Part shown: positions 45,951 through 59,019 of the stretch, piece by piece
How the letters are laid out: every line of letters starts with the position of its first letter
Numbering within the stretch: the stretch's first letter is position 1
From: Rhodothermus marinus
Lineage (GTDB): Bacteria; Bacteroidota; Rhodothermia; Rhodothermales; Rhodothermaceae
DNA: 64,000 nucleotides
NCBI RefSeq assembly: GCF_009936275.1
Contig: NZ_AP019797.1
Location: 611,501-675,500 of the forward strand
Direction: 5' to 3'
Translations under genes and position numbers: made by a program
The notes under the pieces: generated by a model
Databases searched by the model: none
What the model saw: the letters and a program-made list of their open reading frames with translations, nothing else
Told to the model about the DNA's origin: nothing

Positions 45951-47315
45951 ATGCCTGTCCGTGAGTTTCGCTTCAGTGGGATCAGTGTGAGCGGGGTGCC
46001 TGTGCAGGGCACGGTGCTGGCCCCCTCGATGCGGGCGGCCCGCAAGAAGCTCGCCGAGCTGGCCGAAAAGCACGGCTTCCGGCCCCAGCTTCTGCAGCCG
46101 CGCCGCACCTTCATCTACAAGGTGCGGCATCCCAGCGGACGGGTCATCACCGGCGAGCAGAAGGCCTACACGGCCGAAGAGCTGGCCCAGGCCCTGCGCA
46201 AGATGGGCCTGGAGGTGATTCGCATCGAGCGCAAGGTGCTCGATTTTCAGATGAAGCCGCCGCGGACCGACATCATCATGTTCGTGCGTCTGGCGGCCAA
46301 CCTGCTCCGCGAAAAGCTGCCCTTCGACGAAGTTCTGAACCTGCTCGTCAACGACGTTTCGTCCAACGCGCTGCGCCAGGTCATCCGCGACCTGAACGCC
46401 GACCTGAAGGCGGGCATGGAGGCGCAGCAGGCCTTCATGAAGCACCAGCACGTGCTGGGCAAGTTTACGGCCTACATGCTCGGCCTGGCCTCGAAAAGCG
46501 GCAACATGGCCGAGATCTTCGAATCGACCGCGCGGTTTCTGGAGCGCCAGAACGAGTTTCGCAAAAGCATCCGTAGCGCGATGATCACGCCGGCCATCAC
46601 GATCATCGCGCTGGTGGCCACGTTCATCTGGTACGTCTGGTACATCTTCCCGATGACGGCCGGGCTGCTGGCCGACCTGGGCATGGAGCTGCCGCCCATG
46701 ACGGCCGCGACGCTGGTCTTTTCGCAATGGCTCGACCGTAACATCCTGTGGCTGACGCTTGCCTTCACGGCCGCGGTGGTCGGCTTCGTGGCGTTCGCGC
46801 GCTCGCCCAGAGGCCAGCTCATCGTTCATCGCTGGCTGATCAAGCTGCCCATCATCGGCGGCCTGCTGCACAAGCTCAACATCGAAATTTTCTGCCGGGT
46901 GTTCGCCATCCTGTATTCGAACAGCGGTGAAAACATCAGTGTGATCAAGATCGCCGCCGAGGCCTGCGGCAACCGCTACATGGAGCACCGGATCAAGACG
47001 GTCACGGTGCCGCTGATGGTGGCGCAGGGGATGGACCTGGTGCGGGCCATGGAAGCCAGCGGCGTCTTCACGCAGATGGCACTGGCCCGCTTCCGCAGCG
47101 GCTCGGAGACGGGGAACGTGCGGGGCGCGGCCGAGCAGATGGCCAATTATTACGAAAGCGAAACCACGCTGAAGCTGAAGGCGGTGGTCGAAGGCATTCA
47201 GACGATCATCGCCATCCTGATAACGATCGCCATCGCCGTCCTGACGATCATTTCCTCCGAGGTGGCCCTGATTCAGCCGTCGTCCACCGACCTGATGCGG
47301 ATGGGCGGGCGATGA
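45951..47315 (+). CDS. pilC: PilC/GspF-like platform protein
   Basis: A 454-residue inner-membrane platform protein. Two T2SSF domains are visible (about 100-225 with F-V-R-L-A-A-N-L-L-R-E-K-L-P-F-D-E-V and A-S-K-S-G-N-M-A-E-I-F; and about 300-425 with FCRVFAILYSNSGENISV and FRSGSETGNVRGAAEQMANYY). Three hydrophobic segments are also present. The N-terminal 100 residues form an extra soluble domain with F-R-F-S-G-I-S-V-S-G. It anchors the ATPases PilB/PilT. The ATG is 2 nt after the ligase stop, and its stop overlaps the PilB start (ATGA). Confidence 0.92.
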   Translation: MPVREFRFSGISVSGVPVQGTVLAPSMRAARKKLAELAEKHGFRPQLLQPRRTFIYKVRHPSGRVITGEQKAYTAEELAQALRKMGLEVIRIERKVLDFQMKPPRTDIIMFVRLAANLLREKLPFDEVLNLLVNDVSSNALRQVIRDLNADLKAGMEAQQAFMKHQHVLGKFTAYMLGLASKSGNMAEIFESTARFLERQNEFRKSIRSAMITPAITIIALVATFIWYVWYIFPMTAGLLADLGMELPPMTAATLVFSQWLDRNILWLTLAFTAAVVGFVAFARSPRGQLIVHRWLIKLPIIGGLLHKLNIEIFCRVFAILYSNSGENISVIKIAAEACGNRYMEHRIKTVTVPLMVAQGMDLVRAMEASGVFTQMALARFRSGSETGNVRGAAEQMANYYESETTLKLKAVVEGIQTIIAILITIAIAVLTIISSEVALIQPSSTDLMRMGGR

Positions 47316-50300
47316 ACGGGCGCTGGAGGGACGGTATCGACATACCAACCACGCGCAAGCGCGCCAGAACGATCGAGCCTATGAGCTGGAGTGATCTGTT
47401 CGGGCGCCGTCGTTCGCCTCGTGAATGGAACGAAGAGCTGCGGCGGCTGAAGTTCGGAACGAAGCCAGAGGAATCCGAAGAGAACGGTGCGTCCGAGGCC
47501 GCCAATCAGGCTTCGGCAAAGCACGAGCCGGAAAACCAGAAAACGCCGGTAAGCCGTAAGGATCCGCCGTTGACAGGGCTTTGGCTGGAGCTGGCCGGGG
47601 ACGGGCATGCCGAGGATGCGCTGCCGGAATTGCCGGAGATCCCGGAGCCGGAGGAAGCTGAGGCCGAAACCGCGGAAGCCGAGCCTTCGGATCGGGCCGC
47701 TGCGCTGACGGACGTGTCCGCCGAAGCGACGTCAGTCCGGCCACAGGCCAGCCTGGCCGATGCCACGCCGGGACGCGAGGGGGCGCGGCAGGAGCCGCCT
47801 CGTCCGAAACAGGAACCCGCCGGTGCGCAGCTGGACGGAACGGCCGACCGTGGCAGTGTGCCGCCGGCAGCGCGCGATCCGCAAGGCGCTTCGCTGCCGG
47901 AGGGCGCCTTCATCCCCGAGTTGGCCGAGATGTTCGAAGACGACGTCGTGATGGCGCTGCTCTACGGCGGGGCGGTACGGCTGGATCAGATCGCGCGGGC
48001 CATCGTGCTGCGGCGGCGTCGGCAGGAGCAACGGCTCTGGCGTTGCCTGCTGGAAGTGCCCGGGGTCGATCGAGAGACCGTGCTGGCCGAGGCGGCCCGT
48101 GTGGGCGGCATCGCACCGGCCCCGGTCGACGAAGAGCGCCCTTCGGTCGAATTCATCAAGGCCATTCTGTTGCTCCTGCCGCCTTCGGTGCAGCATGCGC
48201 TGTTCGCGTGGCAACTGTTACCCTGCGGATTCGCTCAGGGGAAAGAAGGCGGCCGCGTGCTGCTGCTGGCCACGCACGATCCGATGCGGCCGGAATTGAA
48301 GCAGGCGCTTCAGGAACTGCGGCTTCCTGCAGAACTCCGGTACGCGCCCGAGCGCATTCTGACGAAGCGGCTGGCCGAGCTGGAGAACTTCCGGCCGCCT
48401 GTGTCCGGCCTCGAGGCACCCGCCGGCGAGGCGTCTCCTTCGGTGAAGGAGGATGATTCCGGGGCGCAGCCGCAGGCCTGGGCACCGGAGCCCGAAATCG
48501 ATAGAGCGCCCGCGCAGCCAGAACCTGAGCCGCCGGAACCCGTCGCCGAAACGCCGACGCCAGATGCGGCCGATACGGATGCGGTCTGGGAAACGGCGCT
48601 TCCGGAGTTTCCGGCAGACGACGAGCCGGAGGCGGGTGTCGGCCTGCAGGAGGCCGGAACGGCCGAGGTGTCCGAACCAGCCGCGCCGGAAATCCATCCT
48701 GCGGAAGAGGTTCCCACCACTTTTGCCCGGGAGGCTCCGCCGGTCGCAGAACCTCCGGCGGAATCTCTGTTTGAGCCGTTACAGGAGGAAACCCCGGAGG
48801 AGCCCCGGGCGGAAGCTACGCTCGACGCTCAGGCCGAAGCAGCGCTCGAAGCAGCTCCGGAAGTCGCCGTGGAGACGCTGGATGCAGCCTCCGACGCGAT
48901 CGGCGACGAAAGACAGGAGGCCGACGCCTCGGAAGCAGCGGACGATGGCGAGGACGTCCCGCCGCCTGTCAAGATCGTACTGGACGACCTGCCCGAGCTG
49001 AAGGCCGCCATCGCACGCGACCGGGTGGTGAGCCGGCTGCTCGAAAAAGAGGTGGTGGCGCTCCATCAGGTCTATCAGGCCTATCAGCGGCAACAGGACG
49101 AAGGGCTCAAGGAACCGCTCTGGCGCGTGCTGGCCCAGAGCGACCACGTGCCGCAGGATGCCATCTACGAAGAGGCCGCCCGGCTGTACGCCTTCCCCAT
49201 CGCCAAGCTCGAACCGGGCAAGCCCAGTCCGGAGTTCGTGCGCTCGGTGATGGACACCTTCGAAGAGGAGGTGCGCGAGCGCCTGATCGAACTGCGCGTG
49301 GTGCCTTTCGAGGTCGATCTGGATGCCCAGACCGGCGCCGTCAAGCTCGTGCTGGTCACGCACGATCCCATGCGGCCCGAGGTGCACCGCCTGGTGCACC
49401 GGCTCAAGCTGGAGCGCTTCGAACTCCAGTATGCGCCCCGGGGCGTGATCATGCAGGCGCTGATGGAGGCCTATCCGCGTCGCAACGAGTATCTGGAACG
49501 CGTCAAAGAAGAAGCCGCCTACGATCTGGGCACCAGCTACGACGCCGAAACCGAACTGATCGACGAGGATGCGCTGGAGGCCGAGATCAACCGCTCGAAG
49601 CTGATCAACCTCTTCGAAGCGACGCTCGTCGAAGCCGTCCGCCAGGGCGCCTCCGACATCCACATCTTCCCGAACAATCAGAAAAAAGTCGAAATCCATT
49701 TCCGCATCGACGGGCGGCTCACGCGCTGGCACGTCGAGGATAAGGTCCACCCCGAAGCATTCATCGCGGTGATCAAGGACCAGTCGATCAACGTGGACCG
49801 CTTCGAGCGCGATGCGGCGCAGGATGGTTTCATCCAGCGCTGGATCGACGACCACCTCATCCGCTTCCGCGTCTCCGTGCTGCCGATCGCCAACGCGCTC
49901 GAAGACCTGCGCTCGGAGTCGATCGTCATCCGTGTGCTCGACGACCGCAAGGTTATCAAAGACCTGCGGCTGCTCGGTCTCAACAAGAAGGCGCTGGAGC
50001 GCTTCGAGCGGGCCATTCGCCAGCCGCACGGCATGGTGATCGTCACCGGTCCCACCGGCAGCGGTAAAAGCACCACGCTCTACGCCGCCCTCCACCAGGT
50101 CGTCAGTCCCGAGGTGAACGTGCTGACGATCGAAGATCCGGTCGAGTACATCATTCCCGGCGTGCGCCAGATCAAGCTCAACCACAAGCTGGGGCTGGAG
50201 GACGCGCTGCGGGCCATCCTGCGGCACGACCCCGACATCGTGATGGTCGGTGAGATGCGCGACCGCCAGACGGCCGAGCTGGCCATCAAGCTGGCCAACA

Positions 50301-50797
50301 CGGGGCACCTGACGTTTTCGACGCTGCACACGAACGATGCGCCCAGTGCGGTGAGCCGGCTCTACAAGATGGGGATCGAGCCGTTCCTGATCGCCTATGC
50401 GATCAACCTGGTCGTGGCCCAGCGTCTGATCCGCAAGGTGTGTCCGGCCTGCAAGGTGGAAGACAAAGACCCCGACTACGTGATGCTCCGCAAACTGGGT
50501 TTCACGGACGAGGAGATCGAGCGCACCACCTTCTACAAGGCCGGTCGTGACCGTAACTGCAAGGTCTGCAAGGGCGTCGGTTACAAGGGCCGGCGGGCGA
50601 TCGTCGAGGCCATGTACTTCTCGCGGACGATCCGCCACATGATCGTCGAGGCGCAGGGATCCATCGACGAAGACGCGCTGCGTGAGCAGGCGATCAAAGA
50701 GGGCATGCAGACGCTGCGCGATGCCGCCCGCGAGGTCGTACTGGCCGGCGAAACGACCGTCGAGGAGATGGTCCGCGTGACGACGACCGAGGAGTAG
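47312..50797 (+). CDS. pilB: PilB/GspE-like assembly ATPase with duplicated N-terminal domain
   Basis: An 1161-residue secretion ATPase, about twice the usual 560. After a variable N-terminus come a first MshEN/GspE_N-like domain (about 212-360) and an acidic Pro/Glu/Ala linker (about 365-565). A second copy follows (about 570-735); both copies contain THDPMRPE. Then comes the ATPase with Walker A GPTGSGKSTT (about 912), Walker B DIVMVGEMRDRQTAELA, a His box (STLHTND) and a four-Cys zinc site (CPAC about 1043, CKVC about 1083). It powers fibre extension. The start at 47312 overlaps the pilC stop (ATGA); ATG 47381 (MSWSDLFGRRR) is a good alternative. Confidence 0.9.
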   Translation: MNGRWRDGIDIPTTRKRARTIEPMSWSDLFGRRRSPREWNEELRRLKFGTKPEESEENGASEAANQASAKHEPENQKTPVSRKDPPLTGLWLELAGDGHAEDALPELPEIPEPEEAEAETAEAEPSDRAAALTDVSAEATSVRPQASLADATPGREGARQEPPRPKQEPAGAQLDGTADRGSVPPAARDPQGASLPEGAFIPELAEMFEDDVVMALLYGGAVRLDQIARAIVLRRRRQEQRLWRCLLEVPGVDRETVLAEAARVGGIAPAPVDEERPSVEFIKAILLLLPPSVQHALFAWQLLPCGFAQGKEGGRVLLLATHDPMRPELKQALQELRLPAELRYAPERILTKRLAELENFRPPVSGLEAPAGEASPSVKEDDSGAQPQAWAPEPEIDRAPAQPEPEPPEPVAETPTPDAADTDAVWETALPEFPADDEPEAGVGLQEAGTAEVSEPAAPEIHPAEEVPTTFAREAPPVAEPPAESLFEPLQEETPEEPRAEATLDAQAEAALEAAPEVAVETLDAASDAIGDERQEADASEAADDGEDVPPPVKIVLDDLPELKAAIARDRVVSRLLEKEVVALHQVYQAYQRQQDEGLKEPLWRVLAQSDHVPQDAIYEEAARLYAFPIAKLEPGKPSPEFVRSVMDTFEEEVRERLIELRVVPFEVDLDAQTGAVKLVLVTHDPMRPEVHRLVHRLKLERFELQYAPRGVIMQALMEAYPRRNEYLERVKEEAAYDLGTSYDAETELIDEDALEAEINRSKLINLFEATLVEAVRQGASDIHIFPNNQKKVEIHFRIDGRLTRWHVEDKVHPEAFIAVIKDQSINVDRFERDAAQDGFIQRWIDDHLIRFRVSVLPIANALEDLRSESIVIRVLDDRKVIKDLRLLGLNKKALERFERAIRQPHGMVIVTGPTGSGKSTTLYAALHQVVSPEVNVLTIEDPVEYIIPGVRQIKLNHKLGLEDALRAILRHDPDIVMVGEMRDRQTAELAIKLANTGHLTFSTLHTNDAPSAVSRLYKMGIEPFLIAYAINLVVAQRLIRKVCPACKVEDKDPDYVMLRKLGFTDEEIERTTFYKAGRDRNCKVCKGVGYKGRRAIVEAMYFSRTIRHMIVEAQGSIDEDALREQAIKEGMQTLRDAAREVVLAGETTVEEMVRVTTTEE

Positions 50798-51033: not shown

Positions 51034-51585
51034 ATGGCCCAGTCGTTTTTCGCGTTGCTGGCGCTGGTACTGACCGTCAACTTCGCGATGTCGGTCAATC
51101 AGTGGTATGCCACCTTCCAGCGGGCGACGCTTTACCGCGAAATGGAAGAAATGGCCCAGTCGGTGGCCGTCGAGACGATGGAGATCGTGCGGACGCGGGC
51201 CTTCGACCAGGCGGTTGTGGACGGCACAACAACCGGCACGGCGGCCGATCTGACGCTTTTCAGTGATTCAACTGAGTTTGGTACGCCGGGCAATGCCACC
51301 TGTCAGGCATTCGGGGGCACGGCCACGTGTGACGACATCGACGACTTTCACGGCCAGCAGGTGTTGCGGCCGTTCGTGATGGGTCAGGATACCATCTGGT
51401 TCAGCGTGGATCTTACGGTGCGCTATGTCGACTGGGACGCTTCGACAGGCCAGGCGACGCCGGCCTCCGGCAAGACGTTTTACAAACAGGTCATCGTCAG
51501 GGTACAGGACGACTGGGGCGGCGACCTGAAGCCGTTTCTGCCCACGCCTATCCAGCTGGATCGAGTCTTTGCCTACGGATTCTGA
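51034..51585 (+). CDS. Pilin-like subunit 2
   Basis: A 183-residue protein starting MAQSFFALLALVLTVNFAMSV, then a long amphipathic helix (ATLYREMEEMAQSVAVETMEIVRTRAFDQ) and a beta-rich head with a Cys pair (CQAFGGTATC). It lacks the canonical prepilin site and Glu5 but has the pilin layout of N-terminal hydrophobic helix plus globular head. It is first of three consecutive subunit genes after pilB, behind a 236-bp gap that contains a hairpin (about 50849-50869) without a T-tract. Confidence 0.65.
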   Translation: MAQSFFALLALVLTVNFAMSVNQWYATFQRATLYREMEEMAQSVAVETMEIVRTRAFDQAVVDGTTTGTAADLTLFSDSTEFGTPGNATCQAFGGTATCDDIDDFHGQQVLRPFVMGQDTIWFSVDLTVRYVDWDASTGQATPASGKTFYKQVIVRVQDDWGGDLKPFLPTPIQLDRVFAYGF

Positions 51586-51597
51586 TCGGAGGAAGCC

Positions 51598-52242
51598 ATG
51601 TGGTTCATTTTTGACAACCTGAATGCGCTGATCGTCGGCGGCATGTTGTTTCTGATGCTGCTGGGCATTCAGCAGCGGGTGGCCGAGATGAATCTGGAGC
51701 AGACGGTCAACTATATCGTCAAGCGCCAGGCGGGGGATCTGGCCACCTGGCTGGAAGACGATCTGCTGAAGCTGGGGCGCAATGTGGACTGGGAGAGCGA
51801 AACACCCTTCGAAAATCCGGTCGATTCGGCCGGCGTGACCGTCCGGTTCGTGTTTTTCCACGACTCGACCGATGCCGGTGGCAACGCTGTGCGCGTGTAT
51901 GTCCGCTATCGGCTGACACCCGCCGGAGAGCGGATAATCCGCAACGATACGATCCCGGTCTATCGGCTCTATCGCGAAGAATGTGTCGGAAGCGGGTGCC
52001 CTTCAGGGGGCTGGAAGGCCAGTGGAGGCGGTCCCGGTCTGCTGAGCTATTTCAAAATCGATCTGCTCGATCAGGATGCACAGCCGGTGGCCGACCCGGT
52101 AAACAATGCCGATCAGGTGCAGAACACGCGCGTGCGCTTTACGATGGCGGCACCCTTTGAGGTAGCCCGCTCACAGGTGCTCCGGCAGGTGTACTACGGC
52201 TCGACGCTCTTGATTCAACGGCAGATGCAGCAGGGTTCTTAA
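51598..52242 (+). CDS. Pilin-like subunit 3
   Basis: A 214-residue protein starting MWFIFDNLNALIVGGMLFLM, with a hydrophobic helix at about 9-24, then a helix (QQRVAEMNLEQTVNYIVKRQAGDLATWLEDDLLKLG) and a beta-rich head that includes VRVYVRYRLTP and a Cys pair (CVGSGC). It has minor pseudopilin topology without a recognisable processing site. A GGAGG lies 5 nt before the ATG. Its stop codon overlaps the 14-nt leader of the next gene. Confidence 0.65.
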   Translation: MWFIFDNLNALIVGGMLFLMLLGIQQRVAEMNLEQTVNYIVKRQAGDLATWLEDDLLKLGRNVDWESETPFENPVDSAGVTVRFVFFHDSTDAGGNAVRVYVRYRLTPAGERIIRNDTIPVYRLYREECVGSGCPSGGWKASGGGPGLLSYFKIDLLDQDAQPVADPVNNADQVQNTRVRFTMAAPFEVARSQVLRQVYYGSTLLIQRQMQQGS

Positions 52243-52263: not shown

Positions 52264-53445
52264 ATGGGGAAGGCAATCTTACTGGCCGTGACCGCCGTTG
52301 TGGTGGGGGCCAGCGTGATGCTGCTGGAAAGCAGCACAAACCGCCTGCAGGCTGACACCCGGCAGGCGGCGCGTCAGGAAGAGGCCCTGGCCCGTGAAAT
52401 TGCGCGCTCGGCCTACAACCTGATCGTGTCGCGCGCGCGGCAGCTCGAGGTGGAACAGCCCGACATCGAGCTGGACGAGCTGGTAGCGGAGGTTAACGGC
52501 ACAGCCGGTAAGCTGACCGGCGAGCTCAACGGTGGTTCCTACGAGGCCTGGATCTATCCGATCGGAGCTTCGTCCTACGGTGCCGTGGCCATCGGCCGCT
52601 ACGGAGACGCCTCGCACCAGATCGGTAACCATCGGGTGTTGCGCAACGTGCTGGAGGTCGATCAGCCCAGCCAGGTAAAGGTGACGTTCCTGGAGTCGAT
52701 GACTGGATGTTGTATTGCAATTTATCTGCAGAGGTATGTTCCCAAAAATAACAATGGTATGGGAAATAATCTGGGAGGGTGTGATCCAAGTAATCCAGCA
52801 CATGGTAGTAGTTGTGACATTCAACAAGATATTGAATTAAAAGGAAACGGAAAAGGAAAATATATTGCTCTTGAACCTGAGCTTATTTTTGCTCCGGGAA
52901 ATAATAGAGATGGAGAGCAAACTCAAGTTTCCACCATTTTAAATCCGGGTGAAAGAGCAAATATCATATTTGCGGTGCATGCGCCTTTTGATAATTGTGG
53001 AGCTAAAAAAGGTAAAAACAGAAGAGGTGATACGTCGATTGAGATAGATGATCCATTTTTTGATTATGTTCGTCCTGCTTTAGTTGAAAGTGTTGATGAT
53101 TTTGCTCAAATGCAAGAAGGACCTTATGTAATGATACAGCCTCATCCAACCAAGCCTAATACATGGCGTATAGCATTTGAAGATCAGAAATTATCTGGAA
53201 ACGAAAGTGATAAATTAATGGATGTAAAAAGATATGGATATGGCGATATGATATGGCAGAAAAGAATTGGGAAACAATGGGGAGAGCGTAATGGAAAGTT
53301 TAGTTATGGGGGAATGGGCTGGAATGAGTTTGATCAATTTGGGTATTATAAGTTGAAAAATTATTATAAAGTAAACGGACAAATCGTCCCCGATTTCAGC
53401 GACCAGGTGATCGAAATCGAGTTCATCCCGGTTCCGGCTTCCTGA
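52264..53445 (+). CDS. Large pilin-like subunit 4, mosaic gene with AT-rich core
   Basis: A 393-residue protein starting MGKAILLAVTAVVVGASVML, then a charged helix (LQADTRQAARQEEALAREIARSAYNLIVSRARQLEV). The 5' part (to about 52700) and the last 65 bp have the GC-rich codon use of the neighbours. The middle 680 bp (about residues 146-372) are AT-rich with A/T-ending codons. They encode a Cys-, Asn- and Lys-rich head (for example NNNGMGNNLGGC and GAKKGKNRRGD). The size suggests a tip adhesin-like minor pilin. The composition break suggests a recently imported or variable head module. Confidence 0.7.
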   Translation: MGKAILLAVTAVVVGASVMLLESSTNRLQADTRQAARQEEALAREIARSAYNLIVSRARQLEVEQPDIELDELVAEVNGTAGKLTGELNGGSYEAWIYPIGASSYGAVAIGRYGDASHQIGNHRVLRNVLEVDQPSQVKVTFLESMTGCCIAIYLQRYVPKNNNGMGNNLGGCDPSNPAHGSSCDIQQDIELKGNGKGKYIALEPELIFAPGNNRDGEQTQVSTILNPGERANIIFAVHAPFDNCGAKKGKNRRGDTSIEIDDPFFDYVRPALVESVDDFAQMQEGPYVMIQPHPTKPNTWRIAFEDQKLSGNESDKLMDVKRYGYGDMIWQKRIGKQWGERNGKFSYGGMGWNEFDQFGYYKLKNYYKVNGQIVPDFSDQVIEIEFIPVPAS

Positions 53446-53469: not shown

Positions 53470-53517
53470 GGCGGCGTTACGGCAGAAGTGGGCTTCGCTG
53501 TAACGCCGTCTTTTTTT
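53470..53517 (+). terminator. Rho-independent terminator after the pilin-like genes
   Basis: A stem of about 14 bp (53470-53483 with 53497-53510, two G-T pairs) and a 13-nt loop are followed by seven T. It splits the locus into subunit/assembly and retraction/alignment transcripts. Confidence 0.85.
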
Positions 53518-53586
53518 GCCCGTCGGACTTAAGCGATGGGCTTTCGAGGCGATACCTGTAAGGGCAAACCGATCTGGAGGCGTACC

Positions 53587-54885
53587 ATGTCGAACGGCAA
53601 TCCCGCGCTTGCTGAAGTGCTGGCACAGCATGCCTCGGCGGCCCAGCGGCCGCGCCTGCGGCCTGTGCCCCCATTGCCCAAGATTTGCAAGACCGTGCTG
53701 GATTCGGTACCGCCCTCTTTGGTCGGTGAAGACCGCGCGCGCTATCTAGCCGAACAGGTCAATGCCCTGTTGGATAAAGACCGCACGGTGTTGCGGGAGC
53801 ACATGCAGCTGCTGGTTAAGCGCATGCTGGACCTTAATGCCAGCGACCTAGATATGGGTGGCCCGGCCTCGAACGGCTACGTCTGGTACCGCGTGCACGG
53901 CGACAAGCGGCCCTACGAAGAAATGGGCACCTACTCCTGCGACGAGGCCGCGCTGCTCATCCTGAACCTGCTCACCGAGCGCCAGCTCCAGCTCTTTTTC
54001 GAGGAGTGCTCGCTGGACTTTTCCTACGAGCTGCCCATCGAGGGCCGCAACGGCATGCCCCGGCGCTTCCGCGCCACGGTCTATTTCGACATGGACTACG
54101 TGGCGCTGAACATGCGCGCCATCAGCGACGAGATCCGCCCGCTCAAAAGCCTGGGCTTCCATCCGCTGATCGAGCGCGGCCTGATGTTCCGGCACGTGCG
54201 CGACGGGCTGACGCTCGTGACAGGCGTTACGGGCTCCGGTAAGAGCACGACGCTCGATGCCATCATTGACGCCAACAACGACGACGTTTACGCGCACGTG
54301 GTCATCATCGCCCGGCCGATCGAGTACGTGCACCGCTCGCGCAAATGCCTGATTCGCCACCGCGAGGTCGGACGCGACGTGCGCACCTTCAAAGACGGCA
54401 TCGTGCAGGCGCTCCGCCAGGACCCCGACATCATCGTCATCGGCGAGATGCGCGATCCCGAGACGATCTCGGCCGCGCTGGAAATCACCGACTCGGGGCA
54501 CAAGGTCTTCTCCACGCTGCATACCAGCTCGGCCGTGGAGACGATCGACCGTATCGTGGCCGAGTATCCGCCCGACGAGCAGGACCGCGTGCGCAACCGC
54601 CTGGCCGATGTGCTGCGCTGCGTGATCTCCCAGAAGCTGGTACCCAAGATCGGCGGCGGACGCATTCTGGCCAAGGAAGTGCTCTGGATGACGCCGTCGG
54701 CGCGGGCGGCCATCAAAAACAAGAACACCAGCGAAATCTACCAGATGATGTGGGAAGGCGGGGCGCTGGGCATGACGACCCTGGAACAGGATTTGTACCG
54801 CCTGGTCCGGCAGCAATTGATCACGCCGGAAGTGGCGTTCGATTTCGCCAACAACAAGCGTCGCCTGCAGCAATTGCTGCAATGA
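53587..54885 (+). CDS. pilT: PilT-like retraction ATPase
   Basis: A 432-residue ATPase starting at the ATG at 53587 (MSNGNPALAEVLAQH), 6 nt after GGAGG. PAS-like N-terminus, then GVTGSGKSTTLDAIID (about 214), Walker B DPDIIVIGEMRDPETISAALE and the His box FSTLHTSSAVETIDRIV. The C-terminal region A-A-I-K-N-K-N-T-S-E-I-Y-Q-M-M aligns with the AIRNLIRE region of PilT rather than with PilB, and there is no zinc site. The N-terminus is about 60 residues longer than usual. Its presence argues for a retractile pilus rather than a type II secretion system. Confidence 0.88.
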   Translation: MSNGNPALAEVLAQHASAAQRPRLRPVPPLPKICKTVLDSVPPSLVGEDRARYLAEQVNALLDKDRTVLREHMQLLVKRMLDLNASDLDMGGPASNGYVWYRVHGDKRPYEEMGTYSCDEAALLILNLLTERQLQLFFEECSLDFSYELPIEGRNGMPRRFRATVYFDMDYVALNMRAISDEIRPLKSLGFHPLIERGLMFRHVRDGLTLVTGVTGSGKSTTLDAIIDANNDDVYAHVVIIARPIEYVHRSRKCLIRHREVGRDVRTFKDGIVQALRQDPDIIVIGEMRDPETISAALEITDSGHKVFSTLHTSSAVETIDRIVAEYPPDEQDRVRNRLADVLRCVISQKLVPKIGGGRILAKEVLWMTPSARAAIKNKNTSEIYQMMWEGGALGMTTLEQDLYRLVRQQLITPEVAFDFANNKRRLQQLLQ

Positions 54886-54936: not shown

Positions 54937-56670
54937 ATGAAGGCGAAGCAGCAGAAGGTCGCACGCACGAAGGCCCCTTACGTACTGGGCGTTACGATTG
55001 CGGGCCGTACGGTTTACGCCGTGCTGCTCAAGCGCGAAGGAGACGCGCTGGAGGTCGTGCGGCGCTTTACGCGCCAGCGCGTGGCCCGTTTTGCCAGCGT
55101 GCAGCAGGGGGTGCCGGAAGTCAAAGGCCAGGAAGCCGGCGGCGACTTCTCCATCCAGTTTGGCGGGGGAGGCGGGGGCGCGACGCCGTTCCTGAAGTCG
55201 GAGTTCGATCTGAGCGGCGACGGAGCCGGCGGAGAACAGGCGCCGCCTGCTTCGCTCTTCACGATGGAGCTTTCCGACATCCTGGCCGAATGCCGGGAAG
55301 CCGGCTACGGCGATCCGGAAGTGGCCTTCTGCCTGCCCTCGGTGGAGCTGGCCTATGTGGAACTCCGGTTGCCGCGGCGCGCGCGGGTGAAGGAGCAGGA
55401 AACCGGTCCGGTCGATCGCAAGGCGCTGCTGGAACTGCTGGAGCAGCAGGTAGGAACGGCGCTCGAGGAGGAGCAGGTGGCCTTTCTGCCGATGACGCCC
55501 TCCGACGCCGAGACGCATCGGTTTCTGGCCATCTACCCGCGTCCCAGCGAACCGGTGACGGCCACGCTCCAGGCGCTCAAGGCCGAGTCGAACCGAAAGC
55601 TACCCCGCACGCGGCTGTTCGAGACCGAAGTCTCGCTCTACTTGGGGCTGGTGCGAACGGCCCTGCGCCAGCTTGCTCCGGAGACGTCCGATACGCGCTC
55701 GCTGGTGCTGCGCGTGGGTTCCGACGATACGCTGGTGCTCTTCGTGCAGGGCGAGACGCTCCAGCACGCCGAAAGCCTGCGCTCGCTGACCGTGCACGAC
55801 ACGCCCGAGACGGTATGCAGCCGCATCCTGCTGCTGCAGGACGAGTACGGCATCGGTGAGGTGTCGCACGTCTTTCTGGTCAGCGAGCACGGAGAGACCG
55901 AGATCCATCGGAGCCTGGAAGTTTTCTTCCCGAACGCTCGCGTCGAAAACCTGCGGCACTACCTGCCACTGGACGATCAGGAGATCGGACCCGGATCGCT
56001 GGCGGCGCAACTGGCCGCGCTGCGCCTGGTGGGCGATCCGGAGTTCCTGAAGGCCTTCGAGCCGGTCAACCTCTTTCCGTCCAGCCTGCGGCGGCGCTGG
56101 GAGCTGCCCTTCGGCTGGCACGTGTGGGCGCTCTACGCGCTGCTGTTCGTCACCACGCTCTTTTTCGTGTGGCGCTACCTGACGCTCGAAGCCGAACTCA
56201 GCGAGCGCCAGGAGCGGCTGCGTCGGCTCCCGCCGGCCATTGCCGAGACCGACGCGCGGGCGCTGCAGGCCCGGATCGACAGCCTCAACGCGCGCACGCA
56301 GCAGGCGCTGCGGGCACTCGACGTGCTCGACTCGCTGCTGGTGGGGAGCGACCGCTGGAGCCGGTCCCTGGCCCAGCTTTCCCGCGAGGTAGCCGCCGTG
56401 CGGGGCATCTGGGTCGATAGCTGGAGTCCGCGCACCAGCGGCGTCGAACTGAAAGGCAGCGCCGTCGCGCGCGACCGTGTCGTCGAGCTGGCCCGGCGGC
56501 TCAACGGCATCATTCGTTCGCTGACCTTCTCCGAGATCCGCGAGTGGCCGGTTTACGCCTTCGTGATCGAAATCCCCCTGCCCAACGAACTGCCCGAGCC
56601 GGCCCGCTACCTGCGCGAACAGTTTGCCGCCAACACCCAGGCTTCGCAGTCGAAACCCTCGAATCCGTAA
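54937..56670 (+). CDS. PilM-PilN fusion-like protein
   Basis: A 577-residue protein. The first 375 residues resemble the actin-like PilM (YVLGVTIAGRTVYAVLLKREGD; SLVLRVGSDDTLVLFVQG), with a Gly-rich insertion near residue 75. Residues about 390-412 are one membrane helix (WALYALLFVTTLFFVWRYL). The rest is a PilN-like coiled-coil and ferredoxin-like periplasmic domain. In most T4P systems PilM and PilN are separate proteins joined by a short PilN peptide binding PilM. Here they seem covalently linked, fixing the alignment-complex stoichiometry at 1:1. Confidence 0.75.
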   Translation: MKAKQQKVARTKAPYVLGVTIAGRTVYAVLLKREGDALEVVRRFTRQRVARFASVQQGVPEVKGQEAGGDFSIQFGGGGGGATPFLKSEFDLSGDGAGGEQAPPASLFTMELSDILAECREAGYGDPEVAFCLPSVELAYVELRLPRRARVKEQETGPVDRKALLELLEQQVGTALEEEQVAFLPMTPSDAETHRFLAIYPRPSEPVTATLQALKAESNRKLPRTRLFETEVSLYLGLVRTALRQLAPETSDTRSLVLRVGSDDTLVLFVQGETLQHAESLRSLTVHDTPETVCSRILLLQDEYGIGEVSHVFLVSEHGETEIHRSLEVFFPNARVENLRHYLPLDDQEIGPGSLAAQLAALRLVGDPEFLKAFEPVNLFPSSLRRRWELPFGWHVWALYALLFVTTLFFVWRYLTLEAELSERQERLRRLPPAIAETDARALQARIDSLNARTQQALRALDVLDSLLVGSDRWSRSLAQLSREVAAVRGIWVDSWSPRTSGVELKGSAVARDRVVELARRLNGIIRSLTFSEIREWPVYAFVIEIPLPNELPEPARYLREQFAANTQASQSKPSNP

Positions 56671-56676
56671 GCGGCC

Positions 56677-57633
56677 ATGTGGAAGAAGTACGGAAACGCC
56701 CTGTTGCTGTTTGTTGCCTGGCTGATCCTGACCGGCGTGGGCGTCTATTTGACATACTTCAAACTGCCCGATGAGATTGCCCACTACGAGAAGCTGGAAA
56801 AGCTGGCGCACATGCGCGAGACCGAGATGGGCTCGCTGCTGGCCGAATACAGCGCCTCGGAAGAGCGGGCCCGTGAGGTCGAAAGCCGCTGGCGCTCGCG
56901 CTATCGCTACATTCCGGCCTCGCTGAGCACGCCGGAGGTGGTCGCCCGCCTGAACGAACTCTCGCGGCAGGGCTTCGAAACCTTCAACGTCCAGTTCATG
57001 GGGAGCGGCCAGACCCAGAGCGTCAATTACTACACCTTCCGCATCGAGGGCCGCGGTTACTTCTATCATCTGTACCGCTTCGTCTGGGAGATCGAAAACA
57101 CGCCCGAACTGTACCGCATCCGCAATCTGTCGCTGGACCACATCGACCTGGTCAAGGCCGATCGCGCAAGCGGCAAGGAGCGGATGATGGTCATGGTCTC
57201 CTTCAACATGCAGCTGGAAGCCTACTACGGGGGGCTGCCCGACCTGCAGGTAGCCCACATGGCCGACAGCCTCTACCGGCGGCTGCCGCGGGCCGTCTTT
57301 CCGGAAAAGAACCCGCCGGTCAACCCCTTCTACCCGGGCATTCTGGAGCAACTACCGCCCAATTCCGACAACCTGATCGACATCGAAAAGGCAAAACTGG
57401 TGTCGATCGTGGGTGGTCGGGCGGTCTTCCAGGATGCTTCAGGGTTGCGTACGGTGGGGGTCGGGGAAAACGTGTACCTGGGCCAGATCACCGAGATCGA
57501 TCCCATCGAAGGCCGCGTGGTGGCCCGGCTGAACCGCGGCGGGATTCTGGATGAAGTCGAACTTCACCTGGAAACCGGGGAGCGCTACCGTCAGGCGCTG
57601 GGCCCTGTGTTGCTCACGCCGCTGAACCAGTGA
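56677..57633 (+). CDS. PilO-PilP fusion-like protein
   Basis: A 318-residue protein. The N-terminal membrane helix (ALLLFVAWLILTGVGVYLTYF) is followed by a coiled coil and a PilO-like ferredoxin domain (about 80-205). The C-terminal 100 residues (KLVSIVGGRAVFQDASGLRTVG ... VYLGQITEIDPIEGRVVARL) have the PilP/GspC HR-domain pattern that contacts the secretin. It starts 6 nt after the PilMN-like gene. PilP is normally a separate lipoprotein. The fusion is inferred from fold-level resemblance. Confidence 0.7.
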   Translation: MWKKYGNALLLFVAWLILTGVGVYLTYFKLPDEIAHYEKLEKLAHMRETEMGSLLAEYSASEERAREVESRWRSRYRYIPASLSTPEVVARLNELSRQGFETFNVQFMGSGQTQSVNYYTFRIEGRGYFYHLYRFVWEIENTPELYRIRNLSLDHIDLVKADRASGKERMMVMVSFNMQLEAYYGGLPDLQVAHMADSLYRRLPRAVFPEKNPPVNPFYPGILEQLPPNSDNLIDIEKAKLVSIVGGRAVFQDASGLRTVGVGENVYLGQITEIDPIEGRVVARLNRGGILDEVELHLETGERYRQALGPVLLTPLNQ

Positions 57634-57657: not shown

Positions 57658-59019
57658 ATGGAGCATGTGCAGACAAGAACCTGGATTGCGACCGCGCTCG
57701 GTCTGCTATTGATCGGGAGTCTGCTGGCCTGGCCCGGTCTGTCGCAGGACCGGCCGCCCCAGCGGGTCATGCGCACCTACGTGCCGCCCGATCAACTGGT
57801 GTCGTTTCTGCCCACGACGCCGCTGAATCAGTTCTTCGAGCTGCTCAACCCGATCTTTCAGCGGGTGACGGGCAAGCAGATCGTCGATCCCGAGGAGCGC
57901 ACCGACCCGATCGGGGTTTCCATCTCGGGCATGCACTTTTTCGATGCGTTCGAACTGGTATTGCAGACGAAAGGACTGACCTACCGGGAGACCGACAAGT
58001 TTTTCATTGTCGAAAAAGCACCGGAGCGCACCGAGGTGGTGGTCGGGCCGCGCCGGGCTACTGAAGAGGTCGGTACCGTGCAGGCCGGAGCCGTGTTGCC
58101 GGCCACCGTCGATACGCGCGAAATCCAGATCAACGCGATTCTCTTCAGCGTAAACCTGACCAAGGCGCGGGACATCGGCATCAACTGGGATCAGTTTTTC
58201 GGGCTGACGAGCGGCACGGGCACCGGAACCGGAGGGGGGACCGGCGGCGGAACGAGCGGTACCGGAGGACAGAATAACGTGGAGTTTTACCTGAAGACAG
58301 AAGATATTTTCGATCCGCTGGCACCCCTGATCGAAGCCCCTAACCGCATCAGCTTTCGTCAGCTCACCAACTTTCTGCGCTTTCTGGAAACGGAAGGCAT
58401 CGGCGAAACCGTTGCCAGCCCGCAGATCACGGTGCAAAGCGGGGAGCAGGGACGGATCCAGATCGGATCGGACGTGCCCATTCAGACGCGCGACTTTGCC
58501 GGCAACACGATCACGCAGTTCGTCTCGACGGGTATCATCATCGACGTGACGCCCACGCTGCTGGTCGAGCCGGCGGCCGACACGGCCGGGGCTCCGATGA
58601 TCGAGTTCGTGCACCTGGACGTGATGGTCGAAAACTCCAGCGCCACGCCGTCGGCGGCCGGCCTGATCATCGATCGCAATACGGCCGACACGCAGGTACT
58701 GCTGCTCGACGGCGAGCAGACGATCATCGGAGGACTGTACTCGACGCGCGAGTCGATCTCGCGCAAGGGTATTCCCTTCCTGAAAGATCTGCCCTGGTGG
58801 TTCTTCGGGTTGCGCTACATCTTCGGGCGCACGCAGCGCACGATCACGCAGTCGGAGCTGCTGATCGTGCTGCAGGTGAAGGTGCTCGATCCGCTGACGG
58901 CGCGGGCCCGACGGCCGCTCGAGCGCAACCTGCTGGAACGCAGCCGGCGTGAGTTGATGGAACGGTTGGAACGGTTCAGCGAGCAAACGGCGCGTCAGAC
59001 GCGCATGCCGCGCAACTGA
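57658..59019 (+). CDS. pilQ: Short PilQ/GspD-like secretin
   Basis: A 453-residue outer-membrane secretin. The signal peptide or anchor is at about 9-30, one STN/N0-like domain at about 45-120 (GISGMHFFDAFELVLQTKGLTYRE minus spacing), then the secretin domain (about 165-415). That domain includes ETVASPQITVQSGEQGRIQIG, VDVTPTLLVEP-like strands and the end signature TITQSELLIVLQVKVLD. A Gly/Thr-rich stretch at about 180-202 replaces part of the gate region. AMIN and extra N domains of typical PilQ are absent. It forms the channel for the fibre. It is last gene before a strong terminator. Confidence 0.88.
   Translation: MEHVQTRTWIATALGLLLIGSLLAWPGLSQDRPPQRVMRTYVPPDQLVSFLPTTPLNQFFELLNPIFQRVTGKQIVDPEERTDPIGVSISGMHFFDAFELVLQTKGLTYRETDKFFIVEKAPERTEVVVGPRRATEEVGTVQAGAVLPATVDTREIQINAILFSVNLTKARDIGINWDQFFGLTSGTGTGTGGGTGGGTSGTGGQNNVEFYLKTEDIFDPLAPLIEAPNRISFRQLTNFLRFLETEGIGETVASPQITVQSGEQGRIQIGSDVPIQTRDFAGNTITQFVSTGIIIDVTPTLLVEPAADTAGAPMIEFVHLDVMVENSSATPSAAGLIIDRNTADTQVLLLDGEQTIIGGLYSTRESISRKGIPFLKDLPWWFFGLRYIFGRTQRTITQSELLIVLQVKVLDPLTARARRPLERNLLERSRRELMERLERFSEQTARQTRMPRN

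Follow-up and report, generated by a model that had tools for sequence, protein, structure and literature searches.

Results

A pilin-like subunit gene in a pilus-like operon

We analysed a window of 64,000 nucleotides from the genome of Rhodothermus marinus AA3-38 (G000), a single closed contig of 3,430,829 bp. As reference served the 3,261,604-bp contig of a near relative resembling strain DSM 4252 (G004). The two strains AA3-38, which stems from Arima Onsen in Japan, and DSM 4252 share an average nucleotide identity (ANI) of about 95.2% (PMC6952675). The window contains a type IV pilus / type II secretion-like operon (Table 1), in which the gene studied here lies among the assembly ATPases and the secretin, i.e. 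at the location of a pilin or pseudopilin. The PilB/GspE-like ATPase at the start of the operon carries an N-terminal extension of ~650 residues before its MshEN/ATPase region (47312-49500), which is acidic and partly of low complexity.

An earlier note on this DNA had named the gene product a pilin-like subunit. The label rests on the gene context and on a hydrophobic N-terminal helix, both of which were found, but it is not backed by family models: no Pfam or NCBIfam model matches the subunit. By eye, the helix is without the textbook GFxxxE motif. A profile search with the subunit against solved structures yielded no credible match. An AlphaFold2 model built from three sequences was poor (pLDDT 47.7), and its Foldseek matches were not meaningful. 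Any function of the inner domain, called the core in the following, is something that we infer.

Table 1. Features of the operon and of the mosaic gene (positions within the window).
Feature	Position	Strand	Remarks
PilB/GspE-like assembly ATPase	47312..50797	+	PF00437, E 4.5e-103; under the TIGR equivalog cut-offs
Small membrane-anchored pilin-like subunit, differs between species	51034..51585	+	
Small membrane-anchored pilin-like subunit, differs between species	51598..52242	+	
Whole mosaic gene, pilin-like subunit 4	52264..53445	+	393 aa, single copy
Native GC-rich 5' part, codons 1-146: N-terminal hydrophobic helix and first domain	52264..52701	+	GC3 0.82; identity to G004
Conserved 5'-joint block, codons 134-146, QPSQVKVTFLESM	52663..52701	+	Codon table, changepoints; likely crossover homology
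AT-rich core domain, codons 147-373, probably imported	52702..53383	+	ML segment, composition, tree conflict
Native GC-rich 3' end, closing FSDQVIEIEFIPVPAS, then stop	53384..53445	+	DNA equals G004 except first codons; likely crossover homology
Terminator-like inverted repeat, then T7, downstream of mosaic gene	53472..53508	+	Present in G004 too
PilT-like retraction ATPase	53536..54885	+	PF00437; TIGR01420 318.5 bits vs cut-off 319.1
Conserved operon gene, PilM/GspL-like by position only	54937..56670	+	No family match; 96% identical to G004
Conserved operon gene, PilN/PilO-like by position only	56677..57633	+	No family match; 99% identical to G004
Secretin-like gene	57658..59019	+	Close counterpart in L038 matches PF00263, E 1.2e-28

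The core is AT-rich with sharp edges

The reading frame of the mosaic gene is intact and open throughout. Its GC content is ~0.63-0.65 up to position 52701, falls to 0.36 between 52702 and 53383 and is high again until the stop codon. At third codon positions the GC content is 0.82 before the core, 0.22 within it and 0.80 in the last 20 codons; the remainder of the gene and its neighbours have ~60-66% GC overall and ~80% at third positions. Maximum likelihood (ML) segmentation, run on codon-position-specific base frequencies, placed the core at 52702-53383 with a gain in log-likelihood of 137 nats. The AT-rich stretch between GC-rich ends of an open frame that the earlier note had placed at 52700-53380 is thus recovered within a few bases, and the composition of the gene is far from uniform. 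Compared to the other 680-bp windows within the 64 kb (mean GC 0.651, SD 0.037, minimum 0.531) the core with a GC content of 0.362 corresponds to z = -7.8, and it is the only AT-rich island in the window.

For the 5' edge no ramp described the data as well as a step at codon 146 (lnL -129.2; ramp of 8 codons -132.3, of 16 codons -135.1), and both edges are sharp to within a few codons. In a 904-kb genome sample, which comprised two sets of partly overlapping stretches and about a quarter of the genome, we found no second gene whose third-position GC was as low across an extended inner segment flanked by GC-rich ends. Under the core's own base composition an open frame of 227 codons would arise by chance with P of about 2e-9. 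We rejected pseudogene decay in view of the open frame and the conserved protein.

The core has diverged far from that of the near relative

The other proteins of the operon are 91-99% identical between the window and G004, and the 5' part of the mosaic gene follows this trend with 93% identity in protein and 90% in DNA. For the core these values are only 69-71% in protein and 61-62% in DNA, and the refuting condition of the earlier note, a core diverged to the same degree as housekeeping genes, does not apply. At codons 143-146 a changepoint (gain in lnL 58.8) takes the DNA identity from 0.90 down to 0.62, while the last 50 or so bases of the gene match G004 exactly. Fourfold degenerate sites are shared with G004 at 61 of 82 positions in the 5' part versus 10 of 54 in the core, where 9.6 are expected from composition alone. 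This agreement with the composition expectation indicates that the two cores parted long ago. Despite the divergence the core protein is conserved and its frame open, and the core has therefore been kept under selection. The core is far too diverged from that of G004 to have originated in place since the split of the two strains.

Across the genus, DNA is conserved in the last 16 codons of the gene and strongly so at codons 134-146. We found no direct repeats or marks of site-specific recombination at the core edges. A changepoint near codons 129-138 is common to several species pairs. As independent reuse of one crossover site it was rejected, since it occurs in pairs of widely differing depth, and much of the pattern is explained by the 5' part evolving faster.

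The core belongs to another branch of the same family

Relatives of the subunit turned up only in the order Rhodothermales, where they occur in 33 of 114 genomes. The 245 genomes of the class gave the same number, and a phylum sample of 394 genomes contained 14 with relatives, all of them Rhodothermales. The core represents the same Rhodothermales-only domain but from a different branch of its tree. The earlier note had spoken of a swapped or imported variable head; the swap is supported, but the domain exchanged is homologous, from within the family, and not a new head.

Conserved ends around a divergent core, which the note expected across Rhodothermus strains, are not supported as a general rule. 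In the other Rhodothermus species it is the core that is better conserved (83-87% identity among a-type copies, closest pair left out), with the 5' part varying more (mostly 60-75%). At positions invariant in 14 relatives the core of the mosaic gene departs in 8 of 52 cases, its 5' part in 0 of 29. Among about 40 copies in the order only the AA3-38 gene is a mosaic. An AT-rich core was absent from the six other Rhodothermus genomes, all copies elsewhere in the genus being GC-rich, and none of the 245 class genomes has a core of similar base make-up (lowest whole-gene GC3 0.48). In some Rhodothermus species the subunit gene occurs twice in tandem (L038:4354-6702 in G005 and the equivalent place in G003 and G006), and the second, b-type copy is without a ~35-residue asparagine-rich stretch of the core.

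Trees of the two parts of the gene disagree. In the tree of the 5' part the mosaic gene pairs with G004 (support 99/98), and forcing it to group with G001 and the b paralogues was rejected (p-AU 7e-5). In the core tree it joins G001 and the b copies of G003, G005 and G006, inside the Rhodothermus clade (99/98). Forcing the core to group with G004 (p-AU 0.035) or with the a-type copies (p-AU 0.010) was disfavoured, both moderately; these clade tests were picked after the tree had been seen and base composition can bias protein trees, so that the mismatch as such is surer than the precise branch. Ahead of the C-terminal PDF motif lies a derived insertion (YYKVNGQI / YYMVEGKI / YYREPGG..) that is common to the core of G000, to G001 and to the b copies and is absent in a-type and outside copies. 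The earlier note had read the gene as a core exchanged by recombination between native ends, and the jumps in identity and composition, the conflicting trees and the conserved DNA at the joints agree with this. The sharp in-frame change, the differing phylogenies and the conserved joints would all be accounted for by intragenic recombination.

Other AT-rich surface genes

Within the 904-kb sample two other surface-related genes join a GC-rich to an AT-rich part. One encodes a GT2 glycosyltransferase beside flagellin (L084:9858-11018; contig positions 949858-951018), whose first ~116 codons are GC-rich and conserved, while the rest has a GC3 of 0.33. Over the first 90 residues its identity to G004 reaches 97% (95% in DNA), versus 40% for the AT-rich part. 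That part is AT-rich in every Rhodothermus copy read over it, and its sharing pattern among species is unlike that of the first part. The other gene encodes a polysaccharide flippase (L085:2446-3837; contig positions 968446-969837) with GC-rich codons 1-168 and AT-rich codons 169-464 (GC3 0.28). This hybrid is present in G004 too, with a DNA identity of 98.4% for the AT-rich half versus 95.2% for the GC-rich half. An AT-rich glycosyltransferase gene and a polymerase-like gene adjoin the flippase gene.

The core, the flippase, the GT2 gene and one unnamed ORF have a similar composition at fourfold sites (A.33-.40, C.07-.14, G.14-.17, T.38-.44). This base signature, common to the core, GT2 and flippase, suggests a shared pool of AT-rich alleles, though low-GC donors or a common mutational balance could yield the same signature. 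A wider idea is that Rhodothermus species draw the variable halves of surface-related genes from a shared AT-rich pool, that these halves are joined by recombination to conserved GC-rich ones, and that they remain AT-rich over long times by escaping the force that maintains the high GC content of the remaining genome. This idea is tentative and in our view rather improbable. If it were true, the AT-rich and several GC-rich forms of the pilus core would lend themselves to testing why surface loci of bacteria are AT-rich. Two further AT-rich ORFs, an unnamed one (L101:10779-12113, GC3 0.27) and a group 1 glycosyltransferase (L104:4332-5474, GC3 0.33), have a similar base signature.

Origin of the AT-rich core

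The core was very probably swapped for a homologous, long-diverged allele by crossovers in the conserved blocks at its edges. Programmed antigenic variation, by silent cassettes as in Neisseria pilE/pilS or by a diversity-generating retroelement, would likewise produce a pilus-cluster gene whose middle differs while its ends are conserved. The silent cassettes raised in the earlier note were, however, not found: neither core type has a second copy in the closed genome, at the level of DNA or of protein. Together with edges that lack direct repeats and with changes at nearly all synonymous sites, rather than at the adenines of one template, this makes a programmed origin extremely improbable. 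The core might instead have become AT-rich in place, having escaped the force that keeps the GC content high (selection or GC-biased repair) and drifted to an AT-biased mutational balance. Mutation is generally AT-biased in bacteria (PMC2936535), and the other AT-rich parts of the genome have the similar fourfold composition that a common balance would give. We nevertheless consider this very unlikely given that synonymous sites are saturated versus G004 next to a 5' part with 90% identity, that the core joins a different clade with which it shares an indel, that the edges are sharp to a few codons and that the remaining copies in the genus stayed GC-rich.

Less easily set apart is an old balanced polymorphism, in which AT-rich and GC-rich cores have long circulated in R. 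marinus or the genus and AA3-38 has the rarer one. It overlaps with the swap for a long-diverged allele, the difference being where, and over what time, the AT-rich allele existed; given a single genome per species it is inseparable from import. The AT-rich halves of the flagellin-linked GT2 gene, exchanged between Rhodothermus species, and the place of the core within the Rhodothermus part of the family tree are in its favour, whereas 0 of 6 other Rhodothermus genomes have an AT-rich core. We regard it as possible but doubtful.

In the favoured scenario, the swap for a long-diverged allele, a single event or a few in succession would have replaced codons 147-373 of the surface subunit. If the crossovers of homologous recombination fell within the conserved blocks, at codons 134-146 and among the final 16 codons, the gene would have kept its own N-terminal helix, first domain and C-terminal strand as well as its frame. 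The replacing allele would belong to the Rhodothermus clade of the family and have long evolved in an AT-rich setting, either in an unsampled low-GC lineage or in a pool of AT-rich surface alleles common to Rhodothermus. The direction was presumably import into the AA3-38 lineage, and natural transformation or another form of DNA uptake may have been the route. A benefit could lie in an altered exposed part of the appendage that is met by phages, surfaces or partners. The mosaic is known from one strain of the species. Neither the class genomes nor the phylum sample contained a donor-like copy, and searches of phages, plasmids and IMG/VR gave no relatives, only a single chance phage match (E 0.8).

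Comparison with known systems

Mosaic surface-protein genes arise via intragenic, domain-level homologous recombination with a foreign allele. The present gene resembles them in its sharp edges of composition and identity, the conflicting trees of its parts, the conserved DNA at the joints and the preserved frame. Unlike in these genes, the incoming domain lies more than 20 GC points below its host, while its protein relatives are all GC-richer. GC-rich bacteria also have low-GC variable loci for surface polysaccharides (O-antigen-like clusters), which the flippase and GT2 genes of G000 resemble. With such loci the core shares the relation to the surface, the variation between close strains and the unusual AT-richness, but only a single inner domain is affected here and every known Rhodothermus relative has a GC-rich version. 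In Neisseria pilE/pilS, antigenic variation of the pilin proceeds via silent copies. As there, a subunit of an appendage cluster has kept its N-terminal part and exchanged a later part; here, by contrast, we see one large, long-diverged allele without silent copies or repeated short exchanges.

The mosaic is ordinary in kind and striking in clarity. One inner domain of an appendage-cluster subunit would be exchangeable as a whole across long-diverged lineages by way of joints in conserved DNA, and owing to the extreme base contrast the edges can be read to a few bases. The core suggests either that Rhodothermus has an undiscovered relative of low GC content or that there is a pool of AT-rich genes inside a GC-rich thermophile.

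Within the genus, the genes located between the two ATPases differ widely as a block. Between G005 and G000 the ATPases are 92-93% identical in DNA and the pilin-like proteins 57-69%. The two small pilin-like proteins of G005 (L038:3139-4347) share 57-60% identity with those of the window (51034-52242), next to flanking ATPases with 89-96%, which looks like a block replacement of pilin-like genes.
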